Positions 2,842 to 44,633 of a DNA stretch of 53,148 nt are shown here, in pieces (position 1 is the first letter of the stretch; every line of letters begins with the position of its first letter). The stretch is from a virus: positions 1 to 53,148 of IMG/VR virus record IMGVR_UViG_3300044640_000694, one strand, 5' to 3'. Made by a program: the position numbers and the translations under genes. The notes under the pieces were generated by a model. That model searched no databases, was not told the DNA's origin, and saw only the letters and a list, made by a program, of their open reading frames with translations.

Positions 2842-2989
2842 ATTTAATTAATATATATACTACCAAATCCTGATGCGTTGTCAAGTCTTATTTTGATAAC
2901 ACTTTTGTAACAATTGTATATAATACTTATAACAACCCTTTATTTACTTGACTCGTTATAATTCTGTTATCTTGACTTTTATTTTCTGA

Positions 2990-2995
2990 TATAAT
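2990..2995 (+). promoter_or_regulatory. Extended -10 promoter just upstream of a hairpin
   Basis: TGATATAAT (2987-2995) would start RNA at about 3001-3002, which is the first base of the hairpin at 3002-3048. A TTGACT lies 12 bases upstream, too close to be a standard -35. Confidence 0.45.
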
Positions 2996-3001
2996 TTATA
3001 T

Positions 3002-3054
3002 GCTAGTGCTCAGGGTAGTCTCTCATACCCACCATCCTGGGTACTAGCTTTTTT
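3002..3054 (+). terminator. Intrinsic terminator or short structured RNA
   Basis: Bases 3002-3014 pair with 3036-3048 to give 13 pairs, two of them G-U. The 21-base loop can form a further small stem, and six T residues follow at 3049-3054. This is a strong intrinsic terminator on the + strand. It may end transcripts from the holin-like gene. Because a promoter fires at its first base, it could also be the whole of a roughly 50-base RNA. Confidence 0.65.
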
Positions 3055-16226: not shown

Positions 16227-16252
16227 GGGCCTAGGTGAAATATCCTAGGCCC
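16227..16252 (+). terminator. Palindromic hairpin between fibre and oxygenase genes
   Basis: A 9-bp perfect stem GGGCCTAGG/CCTAGGCCC with an 8-base loop. No T run follows on the + strand and an A-rich stretch precedes it. It may act as a terminator on either strand or a processing site. The promoter of the oxygenase block starts six bases later. Confidence 0.5.
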
Positions 16253-16257
16253 TATGC

Positions 16258-16263
16258 TATAAT
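16258..16263 (+). promoter_or_regulatory. Extended -10 promoter of the oxygenase block
   Basis: TGCTATAAT, 7 bases, then the ATG at 16271. It directly follows the hairpin, so the oxygenase genes are transcribed separately from the fibres. Confidence 0.55.
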
Positions 16264-16270
16264 TGAGGAT

Positions 16271-17005
16271 ATGAATACTTGGCTAACAAAAGATAGATCA
16301 GAAACAGACTCAAACAGAATGCCATCTAGGGTAACTCCTAGTGGTATTGTAGTAACTAATCCAGCATTAGGTATTAATGTTTATAACAATGCTATTAGTG
16401 AATCCCTATGTGATTTTATTATTAATACATTAGAAGACAACCTTAATGGTCAAACTAAGTATACTTGGCAGGGTGCTAAGGTTACAGAAGCAGACGATGT
16501 TCTGGAAGAGGCTAGAAAGTGTTTAGACTTTAAGGTAAGTTCTCAAAACCTTGGCCCTAGAGATAACGACAACGCAAAGCTATATGATATGCATGAATTG
16601 GCATTTAGATCAATTCAGCCAAACGTTGATGACTATGGTCGATACTGGGGTGTTGGCGTTAATTTCTTTGAGGCATTTAACTTTGTAAAGTATGATGGTG
16701 CAGGCACACACTTTAAGATACACGCTGACCATGGTCCAGCTTACGTAACTACCATTTCTGTAGTAGCATATGTTAATGATGACTATGAGGGTGGAGAATT
16801 GTACTTTCCAAGATTTAATCTAACCCTTAAGCCAAAGAAGGGCGATGTTATGGTCTTCCCATCAACATATATTTATGAGCATGCCTCTAATGATATGATT
16901 TCTGGCACTAAGTATGCAATTGTTATTATGACTGACTATAATGACCGTGGTGGACTAAGAAACTTTAACTATCGTCAAGAAGACATGAATAGACTAACTT
17001 ATTAA
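16271..17005 (+). CDS. 2-oxoglutarate/Fe(II) oxygenase, P4H type, copy 1
   Basis: A 244-residue protein with the prolyl-4-hydroxylase catalytic pattern: HFKIHADHG gives the iron ligands H151 and D153, YVNDDYEGGELYFPR (about 168-181) is the family signature, and H204 (third ligand) is followed by K214 (2-oxoglutarate) in SGTKYAIVIM. Such enzymes use O2, iron and 2-oxoglutarate to hydroxylate a side chain, most often proline, but some act on nucleic acid bases or small molecules. All catalytic residues are present. The start at 16271 follows from the leaderless promoter. A GTG at 16235 would read through the hairpin. It is the first of six homologues. Confidence 0.8.
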   Translation: MNTWLTKDRSETDSNRMPSRVTPSGIVVTNPALGINVYNNAISESLCDFIINTLEDNLNGQTKYTWQGAKVTEADDVLEEARKCLDFKVSSQNLGPRDNDNAKLYDMHELAFRSIQPNVDDYGRYWGVGVNFFEAFNFVKYDGAGTHFKIHADHGPAYVTTISVVAYVNDDYEGGELYFPRFNLTLKPKKGDVMVFPSTYIYEHASNDMISGTKYAIVIMTDYNDRGGLRNFNYRQEDMNRLTY

Positions 17006-17015
17006 GGAGAATTTA

Positions 17016-17720
17016 ATGTCTGATCAAGAAGATCTAAATAAAAGAATTCAAGATTTTTACAAAATAGATGAAATTACGTGGTCCTCTATTGAAGATTTTG
17101 GTAACGGCATTATTGTTTATCGTGATGTTCTGCCAAAGAGCATGGATATTATCAATAGGCTTGAAGAAGTTTTAAATGATCCAACAAATTTTTATGAGTA
17201 TCAAGAGGCCATGGTTGGCTACGGTATGAAGATTCCAGAATACCGTGACTGTAAAGATTTTAAATACAAGAAGTCAGATATTGCCGATCACCCAGGTGAG
17301 GCAGCAGAAAAACTACGTCAGTTATGGGATGATGTATACTTTAGACAGCTACAGGCAGTAAAGCACTATTGCAAGATGCACAATATTGGTGAACTTAGGT
17401 ATTGGGAAGCAATGAACTTTATTAAGTATGGACCAGGCCAGCACTTCCAGGAACATCATGACAATGGCTACTCATACAACTGTGTTCTTTCTGCAGTATC
17501 TTATCCAAATGATGACTACGAAGGCGGAGAGCTTTTCTTTAGACTTCAAAACCTCAACATTAAGGCAAGGGCTGGAGACTTATATCTTTTCCCATCTAAC
17601 TTTATGTATCCGCATCGTGCTATGCCAGTACATTCTGGAGTCAAGTATTCAATCGTTACAATGCTTGACTATTCGGACAAATACCACAAACCAGAATTTT
17701 ATATGGAGACGGGTAATTAG
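17016..17720 (+). CDS. 2-oxoglutarate/Fe(II) oxygenase, P4H type, copy 2
   Basis: A 234-residue paralogue with iron ligands H147 and D149 (HFQEHHDNG), the signature YPNDDYEGGELFF (163-175), and H200 with K210 in HSGVKYSIVTMLDY. About 130 N-terminal residues precede the core and differ from copy 1, so substrate recognition may differ. AAGGAG precedes the ATG, 10 bases after copy 1. The stop overlaps the GTG of the next gene (TAGTG), tying it to the DUF6065-like pair. Confidence 0.8.
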   Translation: MSDQEDLNKRIQDFYKIDEITWSSIEDFGNGIIVYRDVLPKSMDIINRLEEVLNDPTNFYEYQEAMVGYGMKIPEYRDCKDFKYKKSDIADHPGEAAEKLRQLWDDVYFRQLQAVKHYCKMHNIGELRYWEAMNFIKYGPGQHFQEHHDNGYSYNCVLSAVSYPNDDYEGGELFFRLQNLNIKARAGDLYLFPSNFMYPHRAMPVHSGVKYSIVTMLDYSDKYHKPEFYMETGN

Positions 17721-19168: not shown

Positions 19169-19852
19169 ATGGAAAATCAATATACTAATAATCATAACGA
19201 GAACCCCGTATCAATAACGCCATCTGGATTCTTTGGAAATGGCCCAGAGATGATAGGAACTCTTGAAAATTTTTTAACGGAAGAAGAGCTTCAGGCATTA
19301 AATGGATTTATTCGCAACAATGAAACTTGGGATGTTACTCAAACACACTATAACGAAGACGGAACTGTAATCTATGATTCTGGATATTGGGACGGTCGTG
19401 TAGCAACCTATCCAACAATTAATCAGACAAGCCCTGAAACGGTACAAATGATTAGATCAATCGTTAAAAGATTGAAGGTTGAGATTGATAAGTTCTTTAA
19501 TGTAAGTGCTTCCCCAACATCGCCAGCACTTGTCCGCTGGCTTCCAGGCAATTTACAGATGCCTCACGCAGACAAAGAATTACATGAGGGAGATAATGCA
19601 GGAAAGCCTAATGACTTTCCTTGGTACGACATTGCTACAATTATCTATCTAAATGATGACTATGAAGGTGGAGAGCTATATTTTCCAAACCAGGGAATCC
19701 AATTTAAGCCAAAGCGTGGAGCTGCTTACTTCTTCCCTGGAGACATGAACTATATTCATGGCATAACTACAATAGAGTCTGGAATTAGGTATACCTGCCC
19801 ATTCTTCTGGACTATCACTGCTCACAATAATTCGGAGGTAGGCAATGTCTAA
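19169..19852 (+). CDS. 2-oxoglutarate/Fe(II) oxygenase, P4H type, copy 3
   Basis: A 227-residue paralogue. Iron ligands are H133 and D135 (MPHADKELHEGDN), the signature is YLNDDYEGGELYFP (160-173), and H197 with R207 follow in IHGITTIESGIRYTCPFFW. The 2-oxoglutarate anchor is Arg here and Lys in copies 1, 2 and 6. The longer loop after HxD (ELHEGDNAGKPNDF) is shared with copies 4 and 5, which suggests that copies 3-5 form one subgroup. The end overlaps copy 4 by 8 bases. Confidence 0.8.
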   Translation: MENQYTNNHNENPVSITPSGFFGNGPEMIGTLENFLTEEELQALNGFIRNNETWDVTQTHYNEDGTVIYDSGYWDGRVATYPTINQTSPETVQMIRSIVKRLKVEIDKFFNVSASPTSPALVRWLPGNLQMPHADKELHEGDNAGKPNDFPWYDIATIIYLNDDYEGGELYFPNQGIQFKPKRGAAYFFPGDMNYIHGITTIESGIRYTCPFFWTITAHNNSEVGNV

Positions 19853-20570
19853 TATTATCAATAAAGATAGTTTTATATATTATAAGGATGAGCCAATAGA
19901 GAATAGCATTCTTGGAATCAAAGATAATAGAATCGTAGAGATTCCAAACTTTGTAAGTCCAGAAGATGCAAAAAATATGATTAACTACTTTGAGGCAAAG
20001 GCTGAAATGTGGGGAGATATTGCTTTTTATGGTTCTTCTGGCATGGGGTTGCAACCAAATGACCCAATGCTTGCAGACTATCACTTGCCTGGAGACTTTT
20101 TCGATAACTTGCGTGAGCAGTTTAAGGCAAATGTAGAGGCTGTTTTTGGTAGAGAAGTAAAGGCAAACACTTCGCATGCACAAAAGTGGGATGTTGGAGG
20201 ATTTGCCAATCCACACTCAGACAACTCTGATAACCACGGAGAACCCAATGCCTTTGAGATTAACAAGTATGTGGCAATCCTGTACCTAAATGGAGATTAT
20301 GAAGGCGGAGACCTCTATTTCCCAGATCACGACATTTCGTTCAAGCCAACCCCATATGCACTAATTACTTTTCCTGGTGGGGTAGAGAATATTCACGGAG
20401 TTACAGAAATTACTGCTGGCACTAGATATACTATGGTTTCTTTCTGGGACTTTGCTGACGCAGAGTATTCTGAAGAAAAGAAGACTTGGTGGGAAGAAGA
20501 GACAAGAAAAGTTAGAGAGCAACAAGCTAAGCAAAAAGAGGAGTGGGCTAAGGGCAATAAGCTTGCCTAA
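19845..20570 (+). CDS. 2-oxoglutarate/Fe(II) oxygenase, P4H type, copy 4
   Basis: A 241-residue paralogue. H124 and D126 (NPHSDNSDNHGEPNAF), the signature YLNGDYEGGDLYFPDHDISFKP (147-168), and H184 with R194 (IHGVTEITAGTRYTM) complete the site. The N-terminus (VEIPNFVSPEDAKNMINYFE) is the usual start of the P4H fold. A highly charged helical tail (about 207-241) is added. GGAGG lies eight bases before the ATG. It is closest to copy 5. Confidence 0.8.
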   Translation: MSNIINKDSFIYYKDEPIENSILGIKDNRIVEIPNFVSPEDAKNMINYFEAKAEMWGDIAFYGSSGMGLQPNDPMLADYHLPGDFFDNLREQFKANVEAVFGREVKANTSHAQKWDVGGFANPHSDNSDNHGEPNAFEINKYVAILYLNGDYEGGDLYFPDHDISFKPTPYALITFPGGVENIHGVTEITAGTRYTMVSFWDFADAEYSEEKKTWWEEETRKVREQQAKQKEEWAKGNKLA

Positions 20571-21844: not shown

Positions 21845-24800
21845 ATGTCTAATCCATCTAATCTTTATGCAGAAAAAGTCTTTTCTGAACACCCCATTGC
21901 CCTTTGGCCACTAGATGATTCTGCTGACTATATTTCTCTAATTTCTGAGGCTCAAAGAAATATGGAATCTTGGCAGATTGATAACGGTTTAGCAGAGCTT
22001 GTAACTGGAATTATTGACGAGCCATTTCCCACAAGTCATGTATCTAAAATAACTGTAGACGATACTTCTGGAAGAGAGTTCTATGTAACATCTGTTAGCC
22101 CAGACATTGTTTCTTTTAACAACTTGAGCCAGGAGCTATCAACAATAAATGTTGGCGTTTTCTTATATTCTAATACACCATATGTTTCTGGATTTGATAT
22201 TGGGTATGAATATTATGATAGCGTTAGTGGAGCTATTGTACAAGACCTAAAGTTTTTCTCTACTGAAATATATGAAAGCTGGATCTTTATATCAGAAACC
22301 TTTACGCCAGTAATCCAGTCATCAATGATGAGACTTGTTATTCGTGCTAGGTTCTATGAGGGTGATGATGCAGAAAACTATAGCTTTTTAGTGAATGGTA
22401 TTTCTCTCGGCCAGTGGTCTGAAGAATTTAATTCATCCTCTTTAGGACAAACCCTTGAATCAATACCATCAAATATTTTTGGAGAGTCTGGGCTTTATGG
22501 AATTCCAGTACAGTCATACGGTCTTCAAAATTTTGACGGGTATTACATTGTAGAAAACTATGCACTTAAAGCTAAAAATAGTGGTTTCCCTATGGTTTAT
22601 GGAACTAACAATGTAACTACTATGCAGGGTGTGGGAAGCAGCAAGCCATCTCTTATATTGCCTTCCCTAGGCTTTTTGAATGAGTCTGGAAAATATAAAG
22701 ACTACACTGTTGAGTTCTGGATCAGGGCTAACTCAGACAGCATTATTGACAAAAAGATTTTTGGTAGCATTAGGGGTACTGATGGTGTTTATGTTGGTGG
22801 ACCATTCATTTCTTTCAAGGTAGGAGATAACTTTATTAAGCACTTTGTTGGTGAGTGGTACAGACCAATGCTTGTTCAGCTCAGGTACTCTCCATCATCA
22901 ATATCAATGATCATTAATGGTGAGCAGGTTGGAGAGGTCTTTATAGACGCTACTGAAATTGAGATGACAGAAATAACTTCCATTATCAATAACATTACGG
23001 TAGATAATGACTGGATGGCATTTTGGTCATACCAAGATGTGTCTCCAGTAGAGATAGATGCAGTTGCAATATATGGATATAAGGTACCACTTCAAGTTGC
23101 CAAGAGAAGGTTTATTTATGGTCAAGGTGTTGAGTTTCCAGAAAACATAAACAACTCTTATAGCGGAAGCTCTGTATTTATAGACTATCCATTCTCTAAG
23201 TATTCCAAAAACTATACCTATCCAAATATTGGCAAATGGTCACAGGGTGCTTATGATAATTTCAGAATAAACGGAAATACTTTAGCATTCCCAGGGTATA
23301 GCAATGCCTTAGCAGTCTTTGATAACAAAACTCAGGATCAGTGGCTTAATGATGTTAAACTAATTCAAAACGGAGATGATAGCATAATTTCTCTTAGGCC
23401 AAACTCTGGGTGGAATAATACAAACGGATATATTTATGTAAACAATTTTTCCCTATCTTCCAGCCAGGCAAAAGCTTTTTATGTTACTTGCAAAGAAGTA
23501 TCATCAGTCCCATTACAAACAAAGCAAACGGTACTTCTGATAGAAGATAATGTATTTGGGTCATACTTTGAAATAGCCATATCTCAGGATAAGATAGAGT
23601 ATATTCTAAAAGATGGAGATGGAATTACTATAGTAGATTCAAAAGAGAGATACTTCTTGGGCGAAGACTTTGCTATTGGTATAGACATACAAAGATTCTC
23701 CGATTACTATGGTGAAAAGGTTGCACAGTTTTTTGGAAGACTTTCAAATATGTCTTTGTATATAGGTGGAAGAAAAGACTTTACTCAAACATTTACTGGA
23801 AACATTTATTCTATTGGTGTATGTTCAGAAAAGAACCTAGCTGAAATACAGTCTATCTTTGGTGAGTCTGGACTAATGTTTACTGATGAATTTGTAGATG
23901 GAAATATTCTTTCTTCAACCGCAGATGCAGAATTTTATAATACTGCTGTGTATGAGTTTCTTTATGATGGCGGATCTCTTGGACAATATGCTAACAGTAT
24001 AATATTTTCTCATATAGCAAGTTATCACCTATCTTTAGTAGACTCTCAAATTTCTGGATTTGGTTTAGCTGTAGGATCAAACTCTTACTGGCAAGACTAT
24101 GTTCCATTATCTACATTTGCCAAGCTAGTTCCTGATGCCAAGGGAGACAGCAGACTGGATTTAGACTTTTTGCAGTTTAATATTGACTACCCAGCACCAT
24201 CGATTTTTATTCAAGAGCAAACAACGGGATCGTGGAGTTACGAAGAGCTGGCTTCTGAATATGCTACGCCAATTCAAAGATCATACGAATCTCTCGACAA
24301 CCATTTATTTACAGGATTTGATAGCTATGAAGATTTAAAAAACAGAGCTGAAAATACCTATAAATATGACACATCTTCTTCAATCGTAAAAACATACGTC
24401 ACATTCCAGCTGATAGAGGATAACCCAAATAAAAACCTAAACTCATTTATTAATGAAGAGAGACCATCAAAGGACGGAATTCTAAAGCCAGGAGATAACT
24501 GGCTAAATACAAAGTATGAGGTAGTAGATAACATGATTATCTACCCACCAAACTCCATACCCTTTGAAGATCTAGCAATAGTAACTCACATAGAAGCAAA
24601 GACATTAAGCATCGCTGACAGCCCAATATCAATTAGAAGGCTAGAGTACTGCTCCCTATCTTTGTCTGAAACTTCGCCAACTGCTATTGGAACTAGGTTT
24701 GGGAATGACATCTATCCATATAGAAAAGATGGATTCTACTTTACATACAATCAGGATAATCCTTTTACAATTTACAAGGGTAGCACACCATACCTTTACA

Positions 24801-25543
24801 TGACAAGAAACAGCGGAATAACCATAAAGGGACAGTACGATCCAATAGTAAACCGTGGAATAGCTGTTCCAATCAACCAGTCAAGATCTGACAATCACAA
24901 GGTAATTGCTATGCAAATGTTTCTTAGATTTGATCAAGACTTTTTCCCATACGCCCCAACACAAATCTTTGAGTTGCAAAGCAAAAACTCGTATATTAAG
25001 TTTTATATGGTTGCCACCCATCCATCTGGAAAACGTGCAAAAATCTATGCCATTAATTCCAGGGGACAAGTAGAAAATGGTTTAGCCTTCTACTTAAATG
25101 GAAAGCTAGTAAAGGATCCAACTATTACGATTAAAGAATGGGCAACTCTTGGAATTAGGTTTGCAAATACTCAAGATTTTAATAACTATGAGGGTGCTTT
25201 GCGTATAAATGGTCCACTAACCTTTAATAGTTTGTCTTATTATAAGTCTACAAACCTACAAGAAGTACAGAACGTTGTTCAAAGACCATGGTTTAAGGTA
25301 GAAAAGGCTGGCTCGCTAACGCTAGATTGGAACTATTGGAATGCAATTCCATATCTTTGGGAAGAGGTGTTGGTTATATCAACCACTAGCTATTACGGAG
25401 TTGACCCTTCAGACATCTACAAGGCTTACACAGGAACCAATAAAATTATCGTAGATGACTCAGTAGAGACAACATTTGGTGACTATGCTTATAAATTCTA
25501 TCAAAATGTTTCATGGAAGACTAATACCTACCAAGCCGTATAA
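21845..25543 (+). CDS. Large minor tail protein with LamG-like domains
   Basis: A 1232-residue protein starting MSNPSNLYAEKVFSEHPIALWPLDD, the typical opening of actinophage-type minor tail proteins that carry concanavalin/LamG folds. At least one LamG-like sandwich is visible (about 278-395: YTVEFWIRANSDS... ISMIINGEQVGEVFID) and another part near the end (about 1010-1130: MQMFLRFDQDF... FYLNGKLVKDPTITIKEWATLGIRF). Such proteins usually sit at the tail tip or shaft and bind cell-surface sugars. GGTGGTG lies before the ATG and a weak TGGTAAACT element just upstream. It stands between the oxygenases and the head genes. Confidence 0.65.
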   Translation: MSNPSNLYAEKVFSEHPIALWPLDDSADYISLISEAQRNMESWQIDNGLAELVTGIIDEPFPTSHVSKITVDDTSGREFYVTSVSPDIVSFNNLSQELSTINVGVFLYSNTPYVSGFDIGYEYYDSVSGAIVQDLKFFSTEIYESWIFISETFTPVIQSSMMRLVIRARFYEGDDAENYSFLVNGISLGQWSEEFNSSSLGQTLESIPSNIFGESGLYGIPVQSYGLQNFDGYYIVENYALKAKNSGFPMVYGTNNVTTMQGVGSSKPSLILPSLGFLNESGKYKDYTVEFWIRANSDSIIDKKIFGSIRGTDGVYVGGPFISFKVGDNFIKHFVGEWYRPMLVQLRYSPSSISMIINGEQVGEVFIDATEIEMTEITSIINNITVDNDWMAFWSYQDVSPVEIDAVAIYGYKVPLQVAKRRFIYGQGVEFPENINNSYSGSSVFIDYPFSKYSKNYTYPNIGKWSQGAYDNFRINGNTLAFPGYSNALAVFDNKTQDQWLNDVKLIQNGDDSIISLRPNSGWNNTNGYIYVNNFSLSSSQAKAFYVTCKEVSSVPLQTKQTVLLIEDNVFGSYFEIAISQDKIEYILKDGDGITIVDSKERYFLGEDFAIGIDIQRFSDYYGEKVAQFFGRLSNMSLYIGGRKDFTQTFTGNIYSIGVCSEKNLAEIQSIFGESGLMFTDEFVDGNILSSTADAEFYNTAVYEFLYDGGSLGQYANSIIFSHIASYHLSLVDSQISGFGLAVGSNSYWQDYVPLSTFAKLVPDAKGDSRLDLDFLQFNIDYPAPSIFIQEQTTGSWSYEELASEYATPIQRSYESLDNHLFTGFDSYEDLKNRAENTYKYDTSSSIVKTYVTFQLIEDNPNKNLNSFINEERPSKDGILKPGDNWLNTKYEVVDNMIIYPPNSIPFEDLAIVTHIEAKTLSIADSPISIRRLEYCSLSLSETSPTAIGTRFGNDIYPYRKDGFYFTYNQDNPFTIYKGSTPYLYMTRNSGITIKGQYDPIVNRGIAVPINQSRSDNHKVIAMQMFLRFDQDFFPYAPTQIFELQSKNSYIKFYMVATHPSGKRAKIYAINSRGQVENGLAFYLNGKLVKDPTITIKEWATLGIRFANTQDFNNYEGALRINGPLTFNSLSYYKSTNLQEVQNVVQRPWFKVEKAGSLTLDWNYWNAIPYLWEEVLVISTTSYYGVDPSDIYKAYTGTNKIIVDDSVETTFGDYAYKFYQNVSWKTNTYQAV

Positions 25544-35156: not shown

Positions 35157-38100
35157 ATGGCTGATATAGAATCAAATATTAGATTTGGAGTAGATACTTC
35201 CGATGCTATAGCGTCTATCAAGATGCTACAGGCACAGATATCAGCCTTCCAAAAACAGATGGCCTCGTCCTCAGTTGCCAATGCAGAATCTGCTAGGAAG
35301 CTGAGGCGAGGTCTTATCGATGACCTCAATGCTAGTGGCCAGTGGTCAGCCTCAATAAAAAATATTCAGAGCTCTTCTGAGAGCTTTACCAACGCCCTTG
35401 AAAAGAACAAGCTCTCCATGGGAGAGTACTTTAGATATGGTGCATCTCAAGTTGGTGGGTTTAGAAAAACCTTCACCAAAGAGTTTGATACGATTGAAAA
35501 GGTTGCAAGAGAACGAGTCAAAGACTTACAGACTCAGTACATATCTCTTGGCCGAGATGCTAACGGTGCACTAAAGGCAATTGCTGTAAGACCACTAAAG
35601 CTAGATATGGAAAGTCTGGCTACCCAGACAGCAATCAATGCTCAAAGACAGCAAATATTTAATCAGCTACTAAAGCAGGGTTCTACTAATCTTCTAAACT
35701 TTGGTAAGAACACTCAGTGGGCTGGTCGCCAGCTTATGGTTGGTTTTACAATTCCTTTATCCATATTTGGAACAATGGCTTCCAAAACATTCATGGAACT
35801 AGAGCAGCAAGCAATTAGATTCAAGCGTGTTTATGGAGAGTTGTTTACTCCTCCTGAAGAAGCCGATGAGATGATTGATACTCTTAAGGAGCTTGCAAAA
35901 GAATTTACTAAGTATGGTGTAGCGGTAGAAAAGACTCTTGGTCTAGCAGCTGATGCAGCAGCCATGGGTAAGACTGGAGTGGAACTTCTTGACCAGGTAA
36001 CAGAAGCAAACCGCCTAGCAGTTCTTGGTAATGTAGAGCAGCAGCAAGCACTTGAAACAACCATCTCTCTAACTAACGCATTTGGAACTGCAACTGAGGA
36101 TTTGGCAAAGAAGATTGACTTCCTAAACGCAGTTGAAAACCAAACGGTAGTTAGCATTGAAGACCTAACCATTGCTATTCCTAAAGCAGGTCCAGTTGTA
36201 CAACAGCTAGGTGGAGACGTAGAAGACCTTGCATTCTTCTTGACAGCCATGAAAGAAGGTGGAATTAATGCCTCTGAAGGTGCTAACGCCCTAAAGTCTG
36301 GTCTTGCATCCTTGATTAATCCAACTGGTCAAGCAGCAAACATGCTAAAGGTTTTTGGTATTAATGTCAAGGAAATTGTTGATGGCTCACGTGGAGACGT
36401 ACGTAAGCTAGTTGTAGACTTTGCTTCTGCACTAGATACACTGGACCCGTCACAAAGAGCACAAGCTATTGAGCAGCTATTTGGTAAGTTCCAGTTCTCT
36501 CGTCTATCTACGTTGTTCCAGAACGTAATTCAAGAGGGCACTCAGGCATCTCGTGTTCTAGAGCTAACTAATGCAACAACTCAAGAGCTTGCACAACTAT
36601 CCTCAAAAGAGTTGAAGCGTGTAGAAGAGTCTACAACATTTAGATTCAAGAAAGCCATTGAAGAATTTAATGCAGCTGTTGCTCCAGTCGGAGAGCAGTT
36701 CCTAAAACTAATTACCCCAATTATTGAGTTTGCCACAAAGATCATTGAGCAGTTTAACTCTCTAAGTGACAATGCAAAGGGATTTATTACTGGACTTACT
36801 GTTTTGCTTGGTGCCGTAGGTCCAGTAGCACTTATGACATTTGGTCTATTGGCCAACGGTGTTGCAAACATTATTAAGGGATTTACCTTTGTAAGAGAGC
36901 TATTCCAAAGAACTGGTAAGCAATCAACTATTCTTGGAGAGCAGTTTGACTATCTGACAACAGAGCAGCTTCAGGCAGCTGCAGTTTCAGCGTCTCTTGA
37001 TCAAGTTCACCAGACATTAATTCAGACATTCTCATCAGAAGCAAGTGCTGTAAAGAAGCTTGGCGATGTTTATAGAATGGCATTTAATGAACAGCAAAGA
37101 TTCGATACTGGTAGAGCAATTGCAAAGCAAGCAGGTCTAAAGCTTGCATCTGGAATTGTTTCCGTTCCAGGACCTAAGGGTGCAGGAGATATTGTACCAG
37201 CAGTCTTGTCCCCAGGCGAAGCAGTTATTCCTGCCGATGCAGCAAAGAAGTATGCTCCTATTATTCAGGGTATGATTGCAGGAAACCTTCCTGGATTTAG
37301 CCAAGGTGTAATGCTTGGTATGCCTCGCTCTGGTAAGGGCACTCAGAAGGACAGAGAAGCAGCTGAGCAGATCTATGAAATGTTCCTTCAGAGCTCTTAT
37401 GCCAGTGTTCCTCCTAGAAAGTATGGGCACCAGCTTGCTAAGACTACTGGACACAGCTTCCCAATTTTTGGTCTTGGCGGAGTATACATGTCTCCAGAAG
37501 GCGAAAAGGTATTCGTAAAGCCAGTACTTGATGAAAGAGCTGCAGTTGCAGAAATGAGAGCAACAGAGATTGCTCGTAGGGCTCATGGACTAAAGTCACC
37601 TGAGCAGCGAATTGTGGTGATGCAAGACCCTACAGATGTTAGGAGACAAAGAAGATTCCTTGCCCTTGAGTCACCGCTAGACCCCACATTTGCCAACAAC
37701 CAGCCAATGGCACTATTTAATGAAGAGCAGTACTTTAGACAGTTAGTTGCCTCTCTTCTTCGTGTAGACAAAGACTTGTCAGCATCTAACGTCTTTGGAG
37801 ATGTTGTTGCAGACGTAGGTCCTGCAGGTGTATTTACTAGAGCATCTGGTCTAAGAGACTATGCAGAAAATCTTCCATCTATGGAAGAGCAGGCAATGAT
37901 AAATCTACTTGGAATCAAGGGTGGTGCAAAGAGGGCATTTGCGGAATCAACACTGTCGTTGATGGCTGGACTAACACCACAGCAGTACCAGCAAAGAATG
38001 GTCTCTGAAATTCAAAGGGTTATTCCACTTCTAGAAGAAACAATAGCTAGCTTTAACCTAACAGACCCAAGAGAAGTCAAGGTATACCAAGATATGGTAG

Positions 38101-41100
38101 CTAGACTTCGCCAGGGACTAGGTGTTGATTGGTCTAAGTTCCACGCTATTCACTCTGCTGTAAAGCCAACTCAGCCAAAGCAAACTACAGTTCCAGGCTA
38201 CAAGAATGGTGTTGTTAGCGTACCAGGACCAAAGGGTGCTGGAGATGTTATGCCAGCGATGCTGTCTCCTGGAGAAGCAGTTATCCCAGCAGACAAGGCT
38301 AAAAAGTATGCTGGATTTATTCAGCAAATGATTTATGGAAAGATTCCTGGATATGAAGATAGCAATGTTGTAAAGGTAACTCAAACTAGACTAAGGCAGT
38401 CATTTGGAGATTCTGGAACAACTAGACTGCAGGCAAGTCACTTCCAAGGACTGACTCCAGAAGAAGCACTTGAAACATTAAGAAAAGATTTAGCTCTGCT
38501 TGGCAAAGAGGCAAAAGATTCATCTGTTCTGGTTAGAGAGTATTATGAAGAAGTTGATGAGTCTGGCAAAAAGGTTGTTGTTGCTAAAGATAGCATAATG
38601 ACACTTTCCGAAGTTGTTGAAAAGTTTGCAGATGGAAAAACAAAAATGGCATTTGGAGGTCAAACCTTTGGAGCCTCTACAGTTTTAGAGTCAGCAGTAA
38701 GAAATCAAAAAGCATATGCAAAGATGGAGTCTGCCATGTCTCCAGAAGAACGTGCTACGATTGGAAAATTGGGTGCTCCAGAAACTCTTCAAGACCTAGT
38801 TGTTCAAGGAGATCTTGCTGCTAGAGCCTTGGTACAGTTTAAAGGAAAGCTTACAAAAGAAGTTCAAACGGTTTTAGAGAATATTGTAAATGAAGGAAAT
38901 AATGCTAAGGCTGCCCTAGCCTCCACAAACTCGGCAGAAGAGCAATTGGCATTTGCAATTTCTCAAAGAGAAAAGTCTATTAAAACACACATACAGTATG
39001 CGGATGCTACGCTAACAGCTTCTCAAAAAGAAGAAAAGATAGCAGCAGTAAATCAAGAACTTGAAAATATTAAACAAATGTATGTAAAAGAACTTCAAGA
39101 GGGAATGTCTGAGCAAGATGCACTAAATAAGGCAGTTGCAAGATTAAGAATGTTAGCACTAGAGAATTCTTCATATGGTCCAGAAGGCATGATGGCACTG
39201 CATGTGGGAGATGTGCCTAATAGTGTTATAAAGCAGGCAGCAGGAAACAAGATTTCTGAAACAAGCTCATCTGGTAGAGAGACCGTTTCAAACTTTAAGT
39301 CTTTGCAAAGACTTCCAGTAGGACTTCCAACTACAGCTGTAGTGGCAAATATTGCACAGGATATGATTTTGGCAGGAGCCGAATCAGCAAGAGTTAATGC
39401 AGAAAGTCTTGATGCATTTGCACGACAAGCCGTGGTTGATTACTTAGACAGCTTCTATAATGGCATAACTGATGGAATGATGGACTTTGCACAAATCAAC
39501 TCTCCATCAGACAGAACAGATGACACAATTGGTAAGCCTTTGGTTGAGGGTATGGAGGCTGGTGCCCTATCTGGTAAAGATGACATGCAGCAGGCTGGTG
39601 CTATTTTGGCAGAAACCGCTGCAGATTCCGCTGCAGCAGCTGCAGGTGGAGCAGGAACACGTGGACCATCAGGTGCAGTTAAAGTTGGAAAGAGAAGAGT
39701 TACAACAAATCCAGCAGCTATCGCTGCATATCAAGAAGAGCAGGGACTACAGACACAGACCAAGCCTGGTCCACGTAGAGCATCTAGACCATCAACAGAT
39801 CTAGGGGCAGCAGCTAGAGAACAGGCAATGACATCAGCACTAGTTGCAGAAGCAAACCAAAGTCAGGCAAGAGCAGCCACAGAGTCTGCTGCAAAGATGC
39901 AAGCAATGAACTCCATGATCATGAACGGCACATTTGCACTGAGCTCTTTAACTGGTGTTCTATCGCTATTTGGTGGGGAATTTGCAGAACTGAACCAAAC
40001 TCTATTTGGTATAACCACAGCACTGTTTACCTTAATGCAAGTTACTCAAATGCTTACTCAGGCAAAGGTAGTAGAGATTGCTAAAACTCAATTTAGTGCA
40101 GCTACTGCCAGGGTAGAGGGTTTAACAAGAGCAGCAAATATGGCTGGCAAACCTTTGGTAGGATTTGGAGGTATGCTATTAAAGGCTGGAACTTTTGTAG
40201 CTAGATTCCTTGGACCAATGGGTCTAGCAATAACAGCAGTATCAGTATTTGCTGCCCTTATTGGATTTGCGATTGATAAAGAGAATAAGAGAAGGGCTGC
40301 ACTAGAAGCATTTGCGAAGACTGTAAAGCTTGCAGATGAACAGCTAGATTATTTAGCAAGTAAGTTTAATGTCACTGCAAAAGAGATCTCGTTTGGTGAG
40401 CCAATTGCTCCAGGAGAAGAACCAAGTGGTGCTCCAACATCATCACAGCTAAGATCTGATGAAGACTTCTTGACTAAGTTTGAGGCACAGATTAACTCCC
40501 TAAAGAGTGCTACAGATGAAGCTGCAGTTCAGCAAATTGAAGGCCTCTCAATGAACCTAAGCTCACAGGGATACTCTGCTGCAGCAATTAAGGAAATTAC
40601 AGAAGCTCTGCTTAAAGAGGCTGGCAAGAACCAAATAGAACTTGACATATTTAAGAAAAATCCAGACGGCACACTATTTATTGATGTAGACCCAAAGAAA
40701 ACCGTTGAGGATCTAGTTACAAATATTCAAAAGAGCGGTGCAGAACTTGTAGCTGCCAAGCGAGGCAGTATGGGTGCTGGCAATGCAGAAGACCAGTATC
40801 TGTCAGATGTTGGTTCTGCAGTAGCATATACAGATGCTGCATTGCGTCAAATAAGAGCAGGGCTTGAAGACGGTACGCTAGAAGCTCAAGATTATCAAGA
40901 TCAGCTAGCACAAATATTTACTCCGATCACAGAACTTCAGGGAGATGACTTAACTACCTTTATCGAAAGTCTAGCCGAGTCAATGGACATAGATGTTGAT
41001 GCACTTACCTCAGACTATGACAAAGTGCTTGCAGCTAAGATGGCAGTTGCAGGACTAGAAATCTCAGATGATGATGTTAAGACTCTTAATGCAGGTGGAA

Positions 41101-44100
41101 AAGAAGCAGAAGCGGTCAGAAAGAGACTAAATAAGTTAATTTTAGGTCAGGCTGACAATATCAAGAAGGTTGTTAATGAAAGAGCACAAGAAAAGCTAAT
41201 TGATGAAAACTATGGAACAGCAACCGCAGCACTAAATGACAGAGTAGTTGCACTTCAAAATCAATCTGGTGCATACCAGACCCTGATTGATCAGGGCTAT
41301 GATGCAGAGACAGCGTTTGAACTTGCTGGAGACTCTGCCTTAGCTGCTGGTATTCAAGCTGCTATTGGTGCTGGTGTTGGTAGCCAAGAGTGGAAAGACC
41401 TAAAGGCACTACTTGATCAGGTAATTGATTTAGAGGCTAAGGCACCTAAGGGTCCAGGCGGAGCTGGTGACAAGTCAGATTATCAGAAGTCAATAGAGTC
41501 TTTGCAGGATCAAAGAAAAGAAATTATTAACAACAATGTTGCACTTAATAAGCTAAGGCAGGCTGGTTTTGATATCGCCAGTGCAATGAAGGCAGCAGAA
41601 GACCCAATTACTGCAGCAGCTCTAGCCAGCACTAAGGTCGGAACTGATAAGTGGAAAAACCTAATTAGCTCTATTAGACAGACACAGGCACTGTTGTCTA
41701 AGAAAGAAATTAAGGACTTGCTACTTGGCAAACAGATTGAAATTGCAGACAAGAAGTCACAAGCCATTGTGTCTACTGCACTTTCTAGACTGGGGTACAC
41801 GGCAGAACAGATTGACGATGTTCTATCTAATCAAGAATTTACAAACACTCTAGCTAAAGATCTTCAAGATGGTTCTATTAATTCTAAAGAGTTGCGAGAT
41901 GTGCTTATTGAGATTAAGAAACTAGGAAAGCTAGAGATTACAGCTAACCTTGCAACCAAGGAAGGTGCTGCAGAAGAATTCCAGAAGAGTTACGATAAAG
42001 TTGTTGGATACCTCCAGGCCAAGCAGGAAACAATTGAAATAGGCTTCCAGCTAAAAACTGATGCTGATAGAACTATTGTTCGTGAAGCAGAAGACCTAAT
42101 TGCAGCAATTCAGTACAAGATTGATGACTATGAGGCAGAGCTTGTCGGTATTGAAGAGCAAGAAGAGCTTATTAACAAGAAGTATGATGATAGAAAAGCA
42201 GCCCTTGATAAAATCGCTAAGGCAAATGATAGAATTGCCAAGCAGCAAAAGGGTCAGCTAACTCTTGCAGATGCTCTTAGCAAGGGTGATATGGCTGCTG
42301 CTGCCCAGGCTATTCAGGACATTAGAGCACAGCAAGCAGAAGACAGTGTAGCTGGACAGGGAGACCTTCTAGAAGCTTCAAAGCAGCGAGAACTTGATGC
42401 AGTGCGATCTTCAAGCGGTAAGAGCAGAAAGCAACTTGAAGAAGATATTAAGAAGCTTAAGAAGGATATTTTTGATATTGAAGAAAAGACTCTTGAGCCA
42501 GCTAATGAAAGAATCCGACTTGCAGGCGTAGAAAAGGCAGCAGCTGTAGCTAGTCTAGATTCACAAATTTTAAAGTGGGAAGAACTTGCTGCAAAGGTAA
42601 ATGAGGCAAAACTTAAGCTTACCCCAGAAGAAATGACTGCAATGCAGACACAAGCAGGTCTTATTGCAGATATGCTACAAAATTGGGATGACATTGATAG
42701 TAAGGAAGCTACTCTTACAATTAGAAAGAAAATAATTGGGGATGTCGTAGATGGGCCTAAGCCTCCTAAGCCTCCAGTTGTTCCTGGTGATAGTGGCGGT
42801 GGAAGTGGTAGCGATAGTGATAGCGGAAATACAGATAGTTCTACTAACTTTAGAGATTCTGGTCTAAGTACTGCTGGATATATTAATAGAACAGACGAAG
42901 GCACTTTGGCAAGAATTCCAACAAAGCCAACTTCAGATGCTGGTATTGGTAAGACCTGGCAGCTAGATGCTACAAATACTTGGAGAGCTGTTACAAGTCC
43001 TAAGCCACCGTACAACCCTGGAATTGGAAATACTTGGTATTGGGATACCTTTACGGATACCTGGAGAATTCAGCCAATTGCTGGACCTAAAAAGCTAGCA
43101 GTAGGTGGGTCCGTAACTGGGCCTGGCACATCAACTTCTGACTCTATTCCTGCAATGCTTTCTGACGGAGAATATGTTGTTCGTGCCTCTAGTGTTGACA
43201 AGCTTGGAACAGGATTCCTAAACTTTATTAATGAAAATGGTAAGCTGCCAGGATTTGCTATTGGGGGTGCTGTAAGTAAGCAAAAGCCAAAACCAAAACC
43301 TGGTGATGCAGGATTCTATAAGCCAAGAACCACATCTGAGGCTATCAGCATGGGTATGCAGATGGTTATGGATAACATAACTAGAGGCATGTTTGGTCAA
43401 GCTGGTGCAAATGCTAAGTACGGTGTTAAAAATACAGCTGGAGATGTCGTTGATTCAGTTGCCACAACACTACTAAATGCTTTGCCAATTCCTGCAGTAA
43501 AGGGAGTTATGTCTACTGCAAAGTTTGGTAAAGCAGTTAAAAACTCATTAGATAAAGATTATGTTTTAAGAAGAACACAAATGGTAGATACGCTACCAGC
43601 AATTCCTGGAATGCCACCTCAGAAGGTTACCCCTTACCCAGTCACAAAGAGAGTAGAGGCTCTTTCTCCATCTCTCTATGCCAGCATTCTAAAGGATAAA
43701 AAAGCTGGAACTCGCTCAGCCGATGATTTCTTGCAAACGTTGCCACTAAGAGGGTTTGAAGATTATTCGGTTAGAACGCAAAACTTTATGGGTAACATGT
43801 TGGGGTCCAACCTACCATATCAAATGAGGAGAAAAGTTGAAACTGGAATCTCTAGTTTGGTTAACAAGGTCGCATCTCCTGGGATAAGATCAATTCCAGA
43901 AACGTTAAGACTTCGCCACAGAAGCACTCAGCCATTGCTAGAAGACTTTGTGACCCACCCATCAGCAGTTCCTGTTGCATCTGGTAGAACTTATGGCCCA
44001 GGAACATACTTTGCAAAAGATCCAAGAACCTCTAAAAGGCTTTTCCGTGGCTTTGGAGATAACGTATATAAACCAAAATTGACTATTCAGGGCATGGTAG

Positions 44101-44633
44101 AGCAGGCAAAAAGTAAGGGATACCTAAAACTTGGCGAAGACAGCCTACCACCTTTGGGAAATATGGATTGGAATGATCCATTTATTCAGGATGCCATGAA
44201 GCAGGGGTATATTGGGATAAAGCATAACGATGCGTACACTAACTGGCTAATTGGAACTAGTGAAGACTTTAGTCTAAAGAAGGTTACTAAGTTTAAGTTG
44301 CCTCAATTAGGAAACCCATATGCAATGGGTGGGCTAGTAAAGCCAAAGTACTTTAATGCTGGTGGAATGGTTAAGGGATATGCTATGGGTGGGGACATCG
44401 TGCCATCTATGCTTACCCCTGGAGAATTTGTAATGAGCAAGTATGCTGTTCAAAATTATGGACTAGATAAGATGAAAGCTATAAATTCTGGCACATACAA
44501 CGGAGATTCCATGTATAATTATGAGATAAATGTTAATGTTCAAACAGATGCAAACGCAGATCAAATTGCCAAGGCAGTTATTGGACAAATTAAGCAGATT
44601 GATTCTCAAAAAATTAGGGGGAATAGGTTCTAA
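35157..44633 (+). CDS. Tape measure protein with inserted enzyme-like domains
   Basis: A 3158-residue tail tape measure. The first 450 residues match the TP901-type tape measure core (GRQLMVGFTIPLSIFGTMASKTF... AAMGKTGVELLDQVTEANRLAVLGN... LTAMKEGGINASEGANALKSGLASLINPTG). Hydrophobic spans lie near 540-575, 1585-1630 and 1680-1705, and there are long charged coiled coils. The motif PGPKGAGD..PA.LSPGEAVIPAD occurs at about 667 and 1019, with related GEYVV/GEFVM copies near 2665 and 3085. Between the first two lies a kinase-like domain (716-1000). Residues about 2880-3045 look like an ADP-ribosyltransferase. The protein sets tail length and may be ejected into the host. It follows the chaperones as expected. 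Confidence 0.85.
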   Translation: MADIESNIRFGVDTSDAIASIKMLQAQISAFQKQMASSSVANAESARKLRRGLIDDLNASGQWSASIKNIQSSSESFTNALEKNKLSMGEYFRYGASQVGGFRKTFTKEFDTIEKVARERVKDLQTQYISLGRDANGALKAIAVRPLKLDMESLATQTAINAQRQQIFNQLLKQGSTNLLNFGKNTQWAGRQLMVGFTIPLSIFGTMASKTFMELEQQAIRFKRVYGELFTPPEEADEMIDTLKELAKEFTKYGVAVEKTLGLAADAAAMGKTGVELLDQVTEANRLAVLGNVEQQQALETTISLTNAFGTATEDLAKKIDFLNAVENQTVVSIEDLTIAIPKAGPVVQQLGGDVEDLAFFLTAMKEGGINASEGANALKSGLASLINPTGQAANMLKVFGINVKEIVDGSRGDVRKLVVDFASALDTLDPSQRAQAIEQLFGKFQFSRLSTLFQNVIQEGTQASRVLELTNATTQELAQLSSKELKRVEESTTFRFKKAIEEFNAAVAPVGEQFLKLITPIIEFATKIIEQFNSLSDNAKGFITGLTVLLGAVGPVALMTFGLLANGVANIIKGFTFVRELFQRTGKQSTILGEQFDYLTTEQLQAAAVSASLDQVHQTLIQTFSSEASAVKKLGDVYRMAFNEQQRFDTGRAIAKQAGLKLASGIVSVPGPKGAGDIVPAVLSPGEAVIPADAAKKYAPIIQGMIAGNLPGFSQGVMLGMPRSGKGTQKDREAAEQIYEMFLQSSYASVPPRKYGHQLAKTTGHSFPIFGLGGVYMSPEGEKVFVKPVLDERAAVAEMRATEIARRAHGLKSPEQRIVVMQDPTDVRRQRRFLALESPLDPTFANNQPMALFNEEQYFRQLVASLLRVDKDLSASNVFGDVVADVGPAGVFTRASGLRDYAENLPSMEEQAMINLLGIKGGAKRAFAESTLSLMAGLTPQQYQQRMVSEIQRVIPLLEETIASFNLTDPREVKVYQDMVARLRQGLGVDWSKFHAIHSAVKPTQPKQTTVPGYKNGVVSVPGPKGAGDVMPAMLSPGEAVIPADKAKKYAGFIQQMIYGKIPGYEDSNVVKVTQTRLRQSFGDSGTTRLQASHFQGLTPEEALETLRKDLALLGKEAKDSSVLVREYYEEVDESGKKVVVAKDSIMTLSEVVEKFADGKTKMAFGGQTFGASTVLESAVRNQKAYAKMESAMSPEERATIGKLGAPETLQDLVVQGDLAARALVQFKGKLTKEVQTVLENIVNEGNNAKAALASTNSAEEQLAFAISQREKSIKTHIQYADATLTASQKEEKIAAVNQELENIKQMYVKELQEGMSEQDALNKAVARLRMLALENSSYGPEGMMALHVGDVPNSVIKQAAGNKISETSSSGRETVSNFKSLQRLPVGLPTTAVVANIAQDMILAGAESARVNAESLDAFARQAVVDYLDSFYNGITDGMMDFAQINSPSDRTDDTIGKPLVEGMEAGALSGKDDMQQAGAILAETAADSAAAAAGGAGTRGPSGAVKVGKRRVTTNPAAIAAYQEEQGLQTQTKPGPRRASRPSTDLGAAAREQAMTSALVAEANQSQARAATESAAKMQAMNSMIMNGTFALSSLTGVLSLFGGEFAELNQTLFGITTALFTLMQVTQMLTQAKVVEIAKTQFSAATARVEGLTRAANMAGKPLVGFGGMLLKAGTFVARFLGPMGLAITAVSVFAALIGFAIDKENKRRAALEAFAKTVKLADEQLDYLASKFNVTAKEISFGEPIAPGEEPSGAPTSSQLRSDEDFLTKFEAQINSLKSATDEAAVQQIEGLSMNLSSQGYSAAAIKEITEALLKEAGKNQIELDIFKKNPDGTLFIDVDPKKTVEDLVTNIQKSGAELVAAKRGSMGAGNAEDQYLSDVGSAVAYTDAALRQIRAGLEDGTLEAQDYQDQLAQIFTPITELQGDDLTTFIESLAESMDIDVDALTSDYDKVLAAKMAVAGLEISDDDVKTLNAGGKEAEAVRKRLNKLILGQADNIKKVVNERAQEKLIDENYGTATAALNDRVVALQNQSGAYQTLIDQGYDAETAFELAGDSALAAGIQAAIGAGVGSQEWKDLKALLDQVIDLEAKAPKGPGGAGDKSDYQKSIESLQDQRKEIINNNVALNKLRQAGFDIASAMKAAEDPITAAALASTKVGTDKWKNLISSIRQTQALLSKKEIKDLLLGKQIEIADKKSQAIVSTALSRLGYTAEQIDDVLSNQEFTNTLAKDLQDGSINSKELRDVLIEIKKLGKLEITANLATKEGAAEEFQKSYDKVVGYLQAKQETIEIGFQLKTDADRTIVREAEDLIAAIQYKIDDYEAELVGIEEQEELINKKYDDRKAALDKIAKANDRIAKQQKGQLTLADALSKGDMAAAAQAIQDIRAQQAEDSVAGQGDLLEASKQRELDAVRSSSGKSRKQLEEDIKKLKKDIFDIEEKTLEPANERIRLAGVEKAAAVASLDSQILKWEELAAKVNEAKLKLTPEEMTAMQTQAGLIADMLQNWDDIDSKEATLTIRKKIIGDVVDGPKPPKPPVVPGDSGGGSGSDSDSGNTDSSTNFRDSGLSTAGYINRTDEGTLARIPTKPTSDAGIGKTWQLDATNTWRAVTSPKPPYNPGIGNTWYWDTFTDTWRIQPIAGPKKLAVGGSVTGPGTSTSDSIPAMLSDGEYVVRASSVDKLGTGFLNFINENGKLPGFAIGGAVSKQKPKPKPGDAGFYKPRTTSEAISMGMQMVMDNITRGMFGQAGANAKYGVKNTAGDVVDSVATTLLNALPIPAVKGVMSTAKFGKAVKNSLDKDYVLRRTQMVDTLPAIPGMPPQKVTPYPVTKRVEALSPSLYASILKDKKAGTRSADDFLQTLPLRGFEDYSVRTQNFMGNMLGSNLPYQMRRKVETGISSLVNKVASPGIRSIPETLRLRHRSTQPLLEDFVTHPSAVPVASGRTYGPGTYFAKDPRTSKRLFRGFGDNVYKPKLTIQGMVEQAKSKGYLKLGEDSLPPLGNMDWNDPFIQDAMKQGYIGIKHNDAYTNWLIGTSEDFSLKKVTKFKLPQLGNPYAMGGLVKPKYFNAGGMVKGYAMGGDIVPSMLTPGEFVMSKYAVQNYGLDKMKAINSGTYNGDSMYNYEINVNVQTDANADQIAKAVIGQIKQIDSQKIRGNRF

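Follow-up and report, generated by a model that had tools for sequence, protein, structure and literature searches.

Does the tape measure protein (TMP) of the virus record IMGVR_UViG_3300044640_000694 carry an ADP-ribosyltransferase (ART) near its C-terminus and, if so, is this an effector delivered to the host or the remains of one? The record, 53,148 bases from an uncultured virus of bacteria, was analysed over its whole length and is referred to here as the window. The original prediction had placed an ART-like domain near the end of the TMP, a protein of 3158 residues (35157..44633, + strand, on which all parts of the TMP described below also lie). Our answer, which we hold to be rather likely, is that the domain is a cargo enzyme effector that is ejected with the TMP and acts on NAD+.

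The domain spans residues ~2893-3053 of the TMP (43833..44315), as delimited from a family of 20 sequences, an AlphaFold2 model and the VIA-align matches to 6kyf and 8gug. The predicted span (43790-44290) covers nearly all of it and its C-terminal position was right. Used as a single query the domain retrieved no relative from viral contigs, GenBank phages, PDB, Pfam or PHROGs. Relatives were reached via the kinase-like domain of the same TMP (residues ~720-1001), which has 21 relatives in viral contigs, followed by alignment-based searches. Two of the TMPs with a kinase-like domain, those of contigs L019 and L021, also hold an ART-like domain, with 30-32% identity to that of the window. The whole family comprises 30 contigs and the window, i.e., 31 viral contigs, with 20 distinct sequences, the other 19 being 25-38% identical to the window domain, and in all members the domain is found only inside tape-measure open reading frames. 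A search of whole records found it in 10 of 15, one copy each and in a stop-free open frame; nine of these ten frames are longer than 2300 codons, the exception (L100, 564 codons) sitting at a contig end. That the domain is a feature of the window only, or a chance likeness in sequence, is ruled out by the 20-sequence family.

The residues singled out by the original prediction (between TMP residues 2918 and 3030) are present where it put them, and the same residues are invariant in the family. Conserved throughout are His2921 (43917..43919), Arg2922, Gly2947-Pro-Gly, Tyr2951 (44007..44009), Gly3017-Tyr, Thr3028, Trp3030 and a few glycines. The family motifs HR, GPGxY and GYxG are invariant, as are T and W of a T[N/S]W motif. 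In the window, residues 2918-2923 read LRHRST (43908-43925), residues 2946-2963 read YGPGTYFAKDPRTSKRLF and residues 3016-3027 read QGYIGIKHNDAY. These are followed by Thr3028-Asn3029-Trp3030 (44238..44246), the third conserved motif and candidate third active-site segment, in which the middle residue is Asn in 18 of the 20 sequences and Ser in the other two (L117 and L118).

A fold model was obtained with AlphaFold2 from the alignment of the 20 family sequences (model residue 1 is TMP residue 2902; an earlier model from 11 sequences, with a predicted local distance difference test score, pLDDT, of 36, was not used). The best model is of moderate quality (pLDDT 70.3, predicted template modelling score 0.69) and has strands at 20-22, 50-51, 68-74, 87-90, 117-122, 125-128 and 137-141. 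His2921 and Arg2922 lie on the first strand and Tyr2951 on the short second one, while strands 5 and 6 form a hairpin that bears the TNW motif; it is in this strand order that the catalytic residues of the ARTs of polyvalent proteins have been described (PMC5512222). The His and Tyr chosen in the original prediction thus occupy the positions expected of the catalytic His on strand 1 and the Tyr on strand 2 of the H-Y-[EDQ] clade of ARTs, both being invariant in 20 of 20. When the 16 best PDB chains from Foldseek were re-aligned with VIA-align, only two gave Z of at least 2, and both have the ART fold: 6kyf (Z 2.5, root mean square deviation 4.7 over 91 residues, 12% identity) and 8gug (Z 2.0, 4.6 over 96 residues, 12% identity). 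The former is AcrIF11, an ART with the key residues H-F-H-D (PMC12421852), and the latter VPA0770, a NADase toxin of the RES family (PMC12204516). Because a Z below 8 may reflect merely a common arrangement, these matches are supportive and non-decisive. From the model it is likely, though not proven, that the domain is a divergent ART-like domain.

The domain is also mobile. The tape measures of this group carry 1-5 copies of a glycine- and proline-rich framing motif of ~60 residues, of the type GGVVRGPGSGTSDSIPAMLSNGEAVIPAKQTKKY and with the pattern GPxGxGDxVPAMLSPGEAVIP...KKYxxxI. By sequence comparison the window TMP has four: copy 1 (VSVPGPKGAGDIVPAVLSPGEAVIPADAAKKYAP..., 37143..37328), copy 2 (VSVPGPKGAGDVMPAMLSPGEAVIPADKAKKYAG..., 38199..38381), copy 3 (VTGPGTSTSDSIPAMLSDGEYVV..., 43095..43283) and the terminal copy 4 (GGDIVPSMLTPGEFVMSKYAV..., 44352..44534). 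The ART-like domain lies between the last two, preceded by a linker or helical segment without family match (43284..43832), and the kinase-like cargo domain (KIN; residues 720-1001, 37314..38159) lies between copies 1 and 2. KIN is recognised by the motifs VFVKP, AE, D-L-xxx-N and D-V-G, in which the Lys, the Glu and the two Asp-containing motifs are conserved in the covering sequences of a 14-sequence alignment; it has no match in Pfam, PDB or Kinase-PolyVal (PF18762). The window thus has the order motif-KIN-motif-stalk-motif-ART-motif. The TMPs of L003 and L004, which are 55-56% identical to it over ~2700 residues and share the terminal motif, lack ~350 residues spanning the ART-like domain and one motif copy (motif-KIN-motif-stalk-motif). 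In L122 the order is motif-stalk-motif-ART-motif, and in L019 and others motif-KIN-stalk-motif-ART-motif. In L117 the ART-like domain is found in the KIN slot after the first framing motif, with KIN missing (motif-ART-motif-stalk-motif), and in L118 after the second (motif-KIN-HAD-motif-ART-motif-stalk-motif); these two slots are internal and all others C-terminal. The additional domain of L118, between KIN and the ART-like domain, resembles HAD acid phosphatases (L118:4543-5160; PF03767, E 1.8e-7, above the cut-off). Several disparate domains predicted to be enzyme-like are thus combined in one polypeptide, two in the window and a third in L118, and the ART-like domain is swappable cargo, one of several exchangeable domains. 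Selection was estimated as the ratio of non-synonymous to synonymous substitution rates (dN/dS, Nei-Gojobori) in nine pairs of related ART-like sequences, and seven of these gave values of 0.09-0.31.

A number of results weigh against an active ART. First, of the five AlphaFold2 models two were near pLDDT 70 and three were poor (42-46), and even in the best one the loop around GPGTY, including the strand with Tyr2951, is below 50. Second, both Z scores are weak, Foldseek listed no ART for the model among PDB chains at E up to 10, and it returned no significant match in PDB or BFVD. For the split six-stranded sheet of ARTs the evidence is a model at pLDDT 70, for which the sole chains with Z of at least 2, weak as these scores are, are ART-fold. 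Third, the ART-PolyVal family PF18760 was not recognised in any of 11 records at E 10, and alignment with hhalign to an ART-PolyVal profile of four sequences gave probabilities of 13% and 2% with the wrong parts aligned. Fourth, the Glu, Asp or Gln expected at the third catalytic position is missing, as no acid is invariant between GY and TNW in the 20 sequences (variants of the motif are GDAFTNW, GTEFTNW, NDAYTNW, GLSMTNW and GDAFTSW). Finally, the remaining pairs in the selection analysis gave dN/dS of 0.48, and of 1.75 at a dS of only 0.03. The profile and structure search proposed in the original prediction gave no profile match and a moderate, weakly ART-like model, and the prediction is supported in part: its claim of an ART fold finds support in the two best solved chains and in the placement of His and Tyr, while the weakness of these matches, the poorly modelled Tyr loop and the third acid count against it.

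The sequence negatives weigh little, because an ART-PolyVal profile anchored on the roseophage domain that PF18760 does recognise likewise finds no ART in PDB. As to the third position, the likeliest candidate to stand in for the acid, judging by its location just ahead of an aromatic residue, is Asn3029 (Ser in L117 and L118). The RES proteins are an ART family with Asn as the third catalytic residue and are active on NAD+ (PMC9503650). With no conserved third acid and no PF18760 match, the domain is assigned neither to the H-Y-[EDQ] clade nor to ART-PolyVal; by analogy it is nonetheless predicted to act, in all probability, in the manner of an ART or of a NADase of the ART type.

Three other explanations should be considered. 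The one that survives best, although unlikely, is that the ART fold has been kept and the transferase lost, so that the domain would be a nucleotide- or ligand-binding module (e.g., for NAD+ or ADP-ribose) or an adhesive one (e.g., for docking to the tail tip or to a host protein). His and Tyr could be retained just for binding, the third acid is replaced by Asn or Ser, and some human poly(ADP-ribose) polymerases without the Glu are inactive. The invariance of His, Arg and Tyr in all 20 sequences argues against such a loss, as do the RES enzymes, active on NAD+ with Asn at the third position (PMC9503650, PMC12204516), and AcrIF11, active despite a non-canonical residue set (PMC12421852).

Second in plausibility, and improbable, is a structural or envelope-interaction module of the TMP that is unrelated to ARTs, the His and the GxGxYFA likeness being merely local. 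This would account for the absence of any significant sequence or Foldseek match to an ART, but the sequence searches are uninformative, as the ART-PolyVal control indicates, both chains with Z of at least 2 are ART-fold, and His and Tyr sit on the strands where an ART would have them. Moreover, the domain is dispensable and shifts between slots, unlike a structural part of the tail. Finally, that it is the decaying relic of an accidentally fused ART is very improbable, patchy as its distribution is and although the window copy lacks an insert present between SKG and DP in relatives, because related pairs are mostly under purifying selection, the frame being open in every copy and the invariant residues retained in the window. 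Of the two fates left open by the original prediction, selection and the pattern of presence and absence favour the effector.

How might a cargo enzyme of this kind operate? The ART-like domain would be packed in the tail tube along with the rest of the TMP, be ejected at genome delivery into the cell envelope or cytoplasm and refold there. It could then bind NAD+ via the His/Tyr pair and transfer ADP-ribose to a host target, or consume NAD+, early in infection, the kinase-like domain of the same TMP acting alongside it. Tape measures occupy the tail tube and exit from it upon infection. Lambda TMP is found near the inner-membrane channel during genome entry (PMC13190303), and a TMP-like effector of a contractile injection system (CIS) acts via its C-terminal domain, which is proposed to refold after ejection (PMC13277306). 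The framing motif copies may be the boundaries where cargo is acquired, discarded or relocated; since copies 1 and 2 of the window share 71% DNA identity, the motif could plausibly serve as a site of recombination. It is an evenly balanced possibility that the TMPs of this uncultured phage group are, more generally, modular effector carriers, in which the framing motif marks slots for shuffled enzyme domains (ART-like, kinase-like, HAD and unnamed others) and the tail ruler doubles as a polyvalent effector, the first to be ejected into the host.

Segments of ~290-360 residues between framing motifs and without Pfam match above the cut-off are present at L015:10721-11803, L013:10841-11707, L126:1590-2657 and L126:8349-9296; it is possible that these are other cargo domains. 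The ART-like domain was not found in 50,697 GenBank phages, with three family members as queries and E up to 1 or 10, nor in 84,980 GTDB species genomes with two alignments as queries. The TMPs of Karimac, SparkleGoddess and Ankus have neither the ART-like nor the kinase-like cargo domain, and that of Karimac has one clear framing motif.

The carrier is identified as a TMP by PF10145 (E 4.5e-27) and the PHROG tape-measure families (phrog_10030, E 6e-101), and its N-terminal 660 residues are 27-32% identical to tape measures of Streptomyces phages (Karimac ~32%). Genes for a portal, maturation protease, capsid and minor tail protein are found near it, and the ART-like segment has the same GC content (0.42) as the TMP gene overall. 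Elsewhere in the window, an open reading frame of 1232 residues without Pfam or PHROG match lies upstream of the portal gene (21845-25543), three clustered genes with 2-oxoglutarate-Fe(II) oxygenase domains (PF13640) lie near tail-fibre-like genes (16235-17005, 17016-17720 and 19845-20570), and a sulfotransferase-like frame is found on the opposite strand (1778-2467; phrog_3347, E 1.8e-5).

Virion-borne ARTs and polyvalent proteins are already known, and both T4 Alt and the polyvalent proteins (PMC5512222) are precedents for packaged ARTs. A literature search of partial coverage found no ART-bearing TMP, and an earlier description is possible; two surveys of ARTs and polyvalent proteins do not mention tape measures (PMC9503650, PMC5512222), and a study that surveyed mosaicism in phage proteins was unable to confirm a genuine case of recent shuffling in TMPs (PMC10684548). 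If the cargo reading is true, these viruses would clearly exemplify the shuffling of TMP domains, and small purified domains could be used to test how uncultured actinophage-like viruses take over the host early on.

Among known systems, functional domains in TMP-type proteins of actinobacterial systems are represented by the peptidoglycan-hydrolase motifs of the mycobacteriophage TM4 TMP and by the CIS effector Sle1. As far as the available part of the source goes, these are a cell-wall hydrolase and a helical growth-modulating domain, not an ART, kinase or HAD domain, and exchangeable slots are not described there (PMC13277306). RES toxins such as VPA0770 belong to the ART superfamily, have Asn at the third position (PMC9503650) and gave the second VIA-align match, but they use Arg-Tyr-Asn where the window has His-Tyr-Asn and act in a toxin-antitoxin context. 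AcrIF11, the best match, is likewise a small divergent phage ART with a non-canonical active site (PMC12421852), but this anti-CRISPR protein is free-standing and has a catalytic Asp. ART-PolyVal (PF18760), of which the virion RNA polymerase of Roseovarius Plymouth podovirus 1 has an example, is similarly an ART-like domain; the virion protein that holds it is very large, has many domains and is believed to enter the cell together with the genome (PMC5512222). It shares with the window domain the early His, the aromatic residue in a GxxF/Y motif and a GYDG-like segment near the end, and polyvalent proteins also hold kinase domains (PMC5512222). Its carriers are virion RNA polymerases or MuF-type proteins whereas that of the window is a TMP, and the window domain has neither the third acid nor a PF18760 or significant profile-profile match. 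T4 Alt and the VIP2-like ART-MuF fusions of actinophages are virion ARTs as well, Alt being delivered and the MuF fusion a predicted part of the virion (PMC7302621), but they are head proteins, and Alt is of the R-S-E clade. Most known enzymes that accompany the phage genome come from the head (T4 Alt, polyvalent proteins), and a TMP with exchangeable enzyme domains would represent a further delivery route, its vehicle being the protein that exits the tail along with the DNA.
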